Positions 7,226-8,123 of a stretch of 16,147 bases of DNA are shown piece by piece. The DNA comes from Nitrospirae bacterium RIFCSPLOW2_12_42_9 (lineage in GTDB: Bacteria > Nitrospirota > 9FT-COMBO-42-15 > HDB-SIOI813). Within the stretch, counting starts at the first letter, position 1. Every line of letters starts with the position of its first letter. Below the pieces are notes generated by a model. It was not told the origin of the DNA. It ran no database searches and saw only the letters and a list, made by a program, of their open reading frames with translations. The translations under genes and the position numbers were made by a program. The DNA lies in NCBI GenBank assembly GCA_001805205.1, contig MHER01000102.1, forward strand, positions 2,447 through 18,593, written 5' to 3'.

Positions 7226-7657
7226 TTGACGAGGAGGTCTAAGGTCTTAACGATATATACAGATGGTGTTGCGAGAGGGAATCCCGGTGAGGGGGGATAT
7301 GGTGTTATTATAAAAGGTTCCGATGGGAATATCGTGGAAGAGATTGGGGGATATATCGGGGAGACGACGAATAATTTTGCGGAGTATAGTGCACTGGTTA
7401 CCGGATTAAAGGCCTCAATGAAATATAGAGCTGACAAGATTGAAGTATACTCAGACTCGGAGCTAATGGTAAGGCAGCTCAATGGTGTGTACAAGGTTAA
7501 GAGTGAATCCCTTATCCCTATGTATAAGGAGGCAAAAAGTATAATGTCCTTACTTGGGGATGTTAAGATAACCCATATACCGAGGGAAAAGAATAAAGAG
7601 GCTGACATACTGGCAAATAAGGCAGTAGATAAAAAGATGCGGACTGAGGTAAGATAG
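7226..7657 (+). CDS. rnhA: Ribonuclease HI
   Basis: The 143-residue enzyme degrades the RNA strand of RNA-DNA hybrids. All catalytic positions are visible: D13 in Y-T-D-G, E53 in NNFAEYSAL, D77 in V-Y-S-D-S, and D127 in NKEADILANKA, with H117 nearby. The start is a TTG at 7226, preceded at six bases by TGAGGGT (7214-7220), which overlaps the previous stop codon; no in-frame ATG or GTG suits. The gap to the zinc-ribbon gene is nine bases, so the pair is co-transcribed. The last codons, GAG GTA AGA TAG, also encode the 5' strand of helix P1 of RNase P RNA. Confidence 0.93.
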   Translation: MTRRSKVLTIYTDGVARGNPGEGGYGVIIKGSDGNIVEEIGGYIGETTNNFAEYSALVTGLKASMKYRADKIEVYSDSELMVRQLNGVYKVKSESLIPMYKEAKSIMSLLGDVKITHIPREKNKEADILANKAVDKKMRTEVR

Positions 7658-8108
7658 ATGGTCGCCCTGTTCTTTTTAAGAACCGGGAGGAAAGTCCGAA
7701 CTCCGGAGGGCATGGTGCTGGGTAACGCCCAGTGGGGGTAACCCTAAGGAAAGTGCCACAGAGAACAGACCGCCGAAGAAGTTCCGGTAGAAGTTCCGGG
7801 GACACCATACTCAATTCAAAACAGAATTGAGTATGGTGTCCCCGGAACTCCGGAACTTCTGGTAAGGGTGAAACGGTGAGGTAAGAGCTCACCGCTCCAT
7901 TGGTGACAATGGAGGCACGGTAAACCCCACCAGGAGCAAGACCAAATAGGGGAACATTCAGTGCAGAAATGTACTGATGAAGTTGGCCCGACCGGGTTCC
8001 CGGGTTAGGTCGCTTAAGGTCTCAAGAGATTGGGATCTCAGAGGAATGATCATCACCCCTCAAAGGGTAACCTTAGAGGGGGACAGAATTCGGCTTATTT
8101 CTTACCTC
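7646..8108 (+). ncRNA. rnpB: RNase P RNA, type A, with enlarged P12
   Basis: This is the catalytic RNA that removes tRNA 5' leaders. P1 pairs GAGGTAAGA (7646-7654) with TCTTACCTC (8100-8108). It may extend to 7639 and 8114 (GCGGAC with GTCCGC across one bulged T). P2 pairs GATGGTC (7657-7663) with GATCATC (8048-8054). Conserved core segments are AGGAAAGTCC (7688-7697, P4 5' strand), ACAGAGAACAGACCGCC (7758-7774), GGTAAGGGTGAAACGGTG (from 7861), CACGGTAAACCCCACC (from 7917), AGCAAGACCAAATAGGGG (from 7935) and ACAGAATTCGGCTTA (8083-8097, P4 3' strand). A P19 hairpin with a GTAA tetraloop is at 8056-8081. At about 463 bases it is longer than the 377 of E. coli, mainly because of the hairpin at 7777-7860. 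It has no obvious promoter and overlaps the rnhA coding end. Confidence 0.95.
7777..7860. repeat. Long palindromic repeat (REP/MITE-like) forming P12 of RNase P RNA
   Basis: A 26-bp perfect inverted repeat (7792-7817 with 7824-7849) closes a six-base loop, AAAACA. Outside it, AGAAGTTCCGG (7777-7787) pairs perfectly with CCGGAACTTCT (7850-7860), leaving a four-base bulge, TAGA, on the left. The total is 37 base pairs. Short direct repeats sit at the junctions: AGAAGTTCCGG at 7777 and 7789, and CCGGAACT at 7842 and 7850. The inner arm GGGGACACCATACTCAATTC resembles palindromic repeats that I recall as dispersed in several bacterial genomes, often near IS200/REP-associated tyrosine transposases; I cannot verify this here. 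No transposase lies in the window. Confidence 0.75.
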
Positions 8109-8123
8109 GTCCGCTTATTTCCT

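Follow-up and report, generated by a model that had tools for sequence, protein, structure and literature searches.

How does the gene for an essential catalytic RNA come to carry a long palindrome in one of its helices? The question is raised by a window of 16,147 nucleotides, by which we mean the whole stretch of DNA that was analyzed, lying on contig C102 of the draft genome G000 (2.05 Mb, 208 contigs, 85.5% complete). The initial annotation of the window had proposed that a mobile palindromic repeat is embedded in the P12 helix of RNase P RNA.

The rnpB gene and its P12 hairpin

The gene matches the full class A RNase P RNA model of Rfam (RF00010, model positions 1-367) with 308.6 bits, compared with a gathering score of 100, and this is the only match found in G000. 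The helix names P3, P12, P16 and P17 are the customary ones, assigned along the Rfam structure line. The initial annotation had placed an 84-base hairpin of 37 bp at P12, and both the predicted fold and the Rfam alignment, which puts the extra bases between the two P12 strands, show that it was correct to the base (7777-7860). The direct repeats that it had noted at the junctions are also present. The features of the locus are as follows.

7646..8112, + strand: rnpB, the class A RNase P RNA gene (RF00010, 308.6 bits, full model)
7777..7787, + strand: outer P12 stem, 5' strand, AGAAGTTCCGG, which is also the first copy of the left direct repeat (from the fold)
7789..7799, + strand: second copy of the left direct repeat AGAAGTTCCGG; 7788-7791 form the 5' bulge UAGA (from the fold and position)
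7792..7849, + strand: perfect inner stem of 26 bp (7792-7817 paired with 7824-7849) with a 6-nt loop, comprising the core and six flanking pairs (from the fold and repeat search)
7798..7843, + strand: core of the putative mobile palindrome, GGGGACACCATACTCAATTC, loop AAAACA and GAATTGAGTATGGTGTCCCC (from dispersed copies and RAYT ends)
7842..7857, + strand: right tandem repeat, CCGGAACT twice, starting at 7842 and 7850 (from position)
7850..7860, + strand: outer P12 stem, 3' strand, CCGGAACTTCT, 11 bp with 7777-7787 (from the fold)

The hairpin has a predicted folding energy of -68.6 kcal/mol versus -22.3 kcal/mol for shuffled sequences (sd 3.2, n = 200; z -14.6), with no shuffle as good, and an inverted-repeat search ranks the 26/26 arms first, as the longest perfect inverted repeat in the window. 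A perfect helix of 26 bp is within the substrate range of RNase III, and this enzyme is encoded in G000 (255.3 bits). At the other end of the gene, an ORF that looks RNase H-like by eye ends at 7657 and so shares 12 bases with the start of rnpB (7646-7657), which places its stop codon within P1. As for the helix itself, a passage of PMC2858038 describes P12 as containing none of the universally conserved nucleotides and as sometimes dispensable, and a passage of PMC8172020 names organisms without it.

Dispersed copies and a transposase gene with the same ends

The core idea of the initial annotation, that a small mobile palindrome sits in P12, is supported by searches of G000, in which the palindrome is dispersed. 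The strict arm pattern GGGGACACCWTACTYAWTTC, with no mismatch allowed, has 17 matches in G000 and none for the reversed control pattern, and GGACACCATACTCAATTC, with up to three mismatches, has 17 versus four for its reversed control. There are eight full palindromes including that of rnpB, on C102, C192, C47, C103, C105, C197, C16 and C29 (the C16 copy has one arm off by a base), and two further arms surround a single transposase gene on C110. The initial annotation had allowed for a palindrome found nowhere else in the genome, which the seven other full copies contradict; these are intergenic with respect to ORFs of 100 aa or more, or touch only the ends of such ORFs. At locus L016, around 1441-1600, a copy of the element lies inside the loop of a further large palindrome (arms GGGACAGC and GCCATTTTTT).

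Within the phylum sample, the palindrome is confined to one bacterial family: the strict degenerate 20-mer occurs in 8/10 genomes of the family, G000 included, and in 0/89 others of the phylum. With up to three mismatches, all 10 family genomes match, some of them by chance (controls give 0 to 4 matches per genome). Database genome contigs were scanned with GGTGTCCCCN{1,31}GGYAAGGGTGAAA, a scan that may exclude records close to the window, and gave two matches, neither in rnpB and neither with an Rfam match at its locus; no further P12 case was therefore found in that scan. A plasmid search with the rnpB query returned 47 records with partial rnpB similarity only, none of them covering 80% of the query.

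The initial annotation had also pointed to a Y1/RAYT transposase gene elsewhere in the genome, and such a gene is present on C110 with the same arms at both ends. It encodes a protein of 220 aa (Pfam Y1_Tnp, 46.2 bits; three Y1_Tnp matches are found in G000) and is bracketed by inverted arms, GGGGACACCTTACTTAATTC upstream and GAATTGAGTATGGTGTCCCC immediately following the stop codon. This right end matches the right arm of the rnpB palindrome base for base, and among the listed places in G000 it alone shares the CTCAATTC variant of the rnpB arms. When the protein is aligned with seven relatives, the presumed HuH histidines and tyrosine (the latter in RYIELNP) are invariant. The best 120 of 8000 database matches are 64-79% identical to it, its own record aside; the few named among them include Thermodesulfovibrionales, Nitrospirota, Deltaproteobacteria and others. 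The phylum to which the window belongs is probably Nitrospirota.

Beyond the palindrome ends, the flanks differ between copies. Among 37 copies, the tetranucleotide before GGGG is TTCC in 14 and TTCT in nine (TTCY in 23/37), and neither GTAG nor GTGG, the GT[AG]G foot that PMC6006769 describes for canonical REPs, is found among the 37. Judged by its sequence, the rnpB palindrome is thus RAYT-associated in the broad sense and is not a canonical REP, because that foot is absent; the REP-type insertion of the initial annotation stands as far as the RAYT association is concerned and has to be given up for the canonical form.

Tandem repeats of at least eight bases adjoin the left edge of 6/37 copies, that in rnpB among them, versus 4/1168 random positions, and the right edge of 3/37, again including rnpB. 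At nine bases or more, the counts are 5/37 on the left, 2/37 on the right and 1/1168 at random positions. In this set L101 was entered twice, and L103 and L219 appear to represent a single insertion carried by two sister genomes; a left repeat of at least eight bases is absent from all three loci. The initial annotation had taken the junction repeats as expected for entry into an existing P12 hairpin; with left repeats of this length at six copies, rnpB included, they do not argue for P12 specifically. Each copy has its own repeated letters, which therefore derive from the flank, and since such repeats, in different letters, accompany other copies too, they belong to the insertion or its aftermath. 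According to a passage of PMC2817692, IS200/IS605 elements make no larger target-site duplications, so the flank repeats would be a feature of this element or of slippage at the base of the hairpin.

Origin of the P12 palindrome and its relation to known systems

We consider it very probable, at roughly 0.87, that a non-autonomous RAYT-associated palindrome inserted into the tip of P12 in the rnpB of G000. The palindrome would amount to a Y1 (HuH) transposase unit reduced to its two ends, placed back to back. Because it is self-complementary, its arrival at the tip would simply have extended the P12 helix. As that helix faces away from the catalytic core, the ribozyme presumably remains functional. 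The flank would have been duplicated in tandem on both sides, either during insertion or through slippage at the base of the hairpin, which would leave the outer 11-bp stem, the 4-nt bulge and the 26-bp inner stem. We infer that the C110 RAYT moved the palindrome, and likewise the time of insertion, the expression of the gene and the tolerance of the ribozyme. Several observations count against this explanation: the C110 protein scores under the curated cut-off of NCBIfam REP_Tyr_transpos (NF047646; 60.9 versus 80 bits), both arms are present at only 1/13 family Y1_Tnp matches, C110 alone (within the loci examined, several of which are cut by contig ends), and the copy number is low (8), with nothing but the perfect arms to suggest recent movement.

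The relatives that we compared belong to the same family, the sample containing no genome of the same genus. P12 measures 28-39 nt in five of the seven readable ones (G003, G004, G007, G008 and G009), versus 91 nt in G000, 89 nt in G005 and 84 nt in G006, the last two with unrelated sequence. The alternative of a long P12 shared by relatives, raised in the initial annotation, thus mostly fails, five being short and the two long ones differing in sequence; these two nevertheless count against insertion in G000, since they show that P12 can grow in other ways. In G006, the P12 palindrome has five matches with up to three mismatches versus none for the control, two of them being rnpB itself and three lying elsewhere, which hints that it may be dispersed. 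With P12 set aside, the rnpB of G000 is 83-92% identical to those of seven family members, G002 being nearest (92.3%). The P12 of G002 consists of 100 N, an unreadable assembly gap, so that no very close relative supplies an empty site, which again counts against our explanation. No rnpB was found in the family genome G001. A contig end at this point had led us to suspect that G004 shares the insertion, and we rejected this on its P12 of 33 nt.

That the P12 arm is an ordinary evolved helix might be argued from its varying length in the phylum, P12 exceeding 55 nt in 18/115 readable rnpBs of an uneven sample. We find this scarcely credible: the dispersed copies already contradict it, as the same 20-mers are found at other genomic sites and at the termini of the transposase unit, and the 26 perfect pairs and the short P12 of most readable family members also speak against it. 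A misjoin in assembly that placed the repeat in rnpB is very improbable. The genome is an incomplete draft of many contigs, and the G002 gap and the G004 contig end both fall at P12, but the sequences on either side of the repeat are parts of a single rnpB covering the whole model, a misjoin would be needed twice at one spot, and the CTCAATTC variant of the arms is, among the listed places in G000, shared only with the C110 right end. It is also improbable, though less extremely so, that the repeat, though truly dispersed, entered P12 through recombination, gene conversion or hairpin template switching and not by RAYT strand transfer. The slippage-like tandem repeats beside several copies would fit such a route, as would the related P3 and P12 modules with few or no copies elsewhere in the rnpB of families f3 and f7; against it, the copies have defined ends that coincide with those of the RAYT unit, mostly after TTCY, and their flanks beyond differ.

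RAYT-mediated insertion would make rnpB a case with several partial parallels. The intervening sequences of 23S rRNA, which are excised by RNase III, are likewise long perfect helices added on a peripheral arm of an essential RNA; they are cut by RNase III, whereas the rnpB hairpin is known here from sequence, in a genome that encodes the enzyme. Vioque is said to have described in 1997 STRR repeats in the rnpB of heterocyst-forming cyanobacteria, which resemble our case as dispersed short repeats inside rnpB and differ in being tandem repeats and not a transposase-end palindrome. Rickettsia palindromic elements (RPE) occur in M1 RNA and tmRNA genes (Ogata et al. 2002, via a passage of PMC2229807), and mobile palindromes in RNase P RNA are therefore already known. 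Like RPE, the present palindrome is a dispersed element within an RNase P RNA gene and presumably tolerated; in contrast to it, RPE are 105-146 bp long and translatable, and that passage of PMC2229807 names no transposase for them, whereas the present element measures ~46 bp and has ends that also flank a RAYT gene.

The arrangement further resembles REP/REPIN sequences and their RAYT (TnpA-REP) as portrayed in parts of PMC2817692 and PMC6006769, with intergenic dispersed palindromes and a Y1 gene flanked by inverted copies, and REP insertions into genes at tolerated places are reported in a passage of PMC6006769. Unlike REP/REPIN, it shows no GT[AG]G foot, a low copy number, long-arm ends and a site in a structural RNA gene. 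Part of PMC6006769 also describes RAYT subclasses with atypical structures lacking GT[AG]G, and by that description our palindrome resembles those of subclass 2.6 and class 3. Among the matches listed from the open-licence PMC literature, no paper on RAYT palindromes in rnpB was found by title, and those listed for the letters GGGGACACC concern unrelated subjects. What gives the case its weight is a mobile palindrome in an essential ribozyme that can be tied to an identifiable transposase unit.

Other palindromes in rnpB genes of the phylum

Similar events involving different palindromes in other lineages of one phylum are the more interesting part, more so than the P12 case. Class A RNase P RNA (RF00010) was matched in 280/395 genomes of the phylum and not in the other 115, including near-complete ones of families f11, f13 and f16, which may use another kind of RNase P. 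We located P12 in 116 rnpB loci, 115 of them readable, from 52 of 53 matching genomes (the 53rd, G004, was read separately) and from 64 more among the roughly 150 best matches listed, few of which come from family f9. The P3 lengths from this survey are unreliable, the anchor often lying upstream of P2, and only individually inspected P3 sequences are used here.

In family f4, the genomes G021, G029, G037 and G050 have a P12 of 68-83 nt together with a long P3, both with GGGAGAGGG-type arms, some of them decayed (loci L046, L131, L034 and L137, respectively). P12 and P3 are short in G012 and G044, which belong to the same genus as three of these four. With up to three mismatches, TGCGGGAGAGGGTCAGGG has 52 matches versus 13 for controls in G029, 40 versus 3 in G037, 26 versus 3 in G021, 15 versus 5 in G050, 21 versus 6 in G012 and 12 versus 8 in G044, the last hardly above control. 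We folded 40 of these stretches (20 from G037, 12 from G029 and 8 from G021), and most, not all, form CCC..GGGAGAGGG hairpins, several of those from G021 being exceptions.

Families f3 and f7 show related long modules in the P3 and P12 of one rnpB (L141 and L138 in G020 and G028, L140 in G032). Outside rnpB loci, the f3 modules have two matches in G020 and one in G043, all with three mismatches; the G032 module has one 71% copy beside it and elsewhere short matches only. In neither family is there clear dispersal. As these paired modules are hardly found elsewhere in the genome, they suggest conversion between P3 and P12.

With other palindromes at similar spots in some relatives, the essential RNase P RNA seems to be a site where small mobile DNA can land and be tolerated. 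Palindrome insertions would then account for some of the differences in P3 and P12 length, and rnpB becomes a natural experiment in the amount and position of foreign sequence that a catalytic RNA can accommodate, as well as a source of single-copy, alignable sites at which RAYT palindrome insertion and the origin of flank repeats can be studied. One could go further and suppose that the hairpin tips of P12, P3 and P16-P17 are a preferred RAYT target, entered independently by unrelated palindrome families because single-strand (HuH) RAYT transposases enter hairpin loops, and that RNase III cuts the hairpin here to leave a working two-piece ribozyme; we regard this as speculative and rather unlikely.

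The P16-P17 site is that of a second palindrome, also RAYT-type and a parallel that favors the insertion reading for P12, which sits between P16 and P17 in the rnpB of two sister genomes of one genus, G004 and G007 (GGGGACAGATTTCAAATCTGTCCCC and GGGGATAGATTTAAAATCTGTCCCC; L142 and L041). Elsewhere in the family, this site holds a short hairpin in G000, G002, G005 and G008 and none in G003, G006 and G009. The arms are GGGGACAGATTT..AAATCTGTCCCC, with one difference that leaves a G-U pair. A different RAYT gene in G004 (L111), whose protein scores 75.3 bits, under the NCBIfam REP_Tyr_transpos cut-off of 80, is bracketed by GGGGACAGATTTATTTT and AAAATAAATCTGTCCCC, with arms near 1164 and 2071, and among the loci examined one variant copy of the second palindrome lies at L080.
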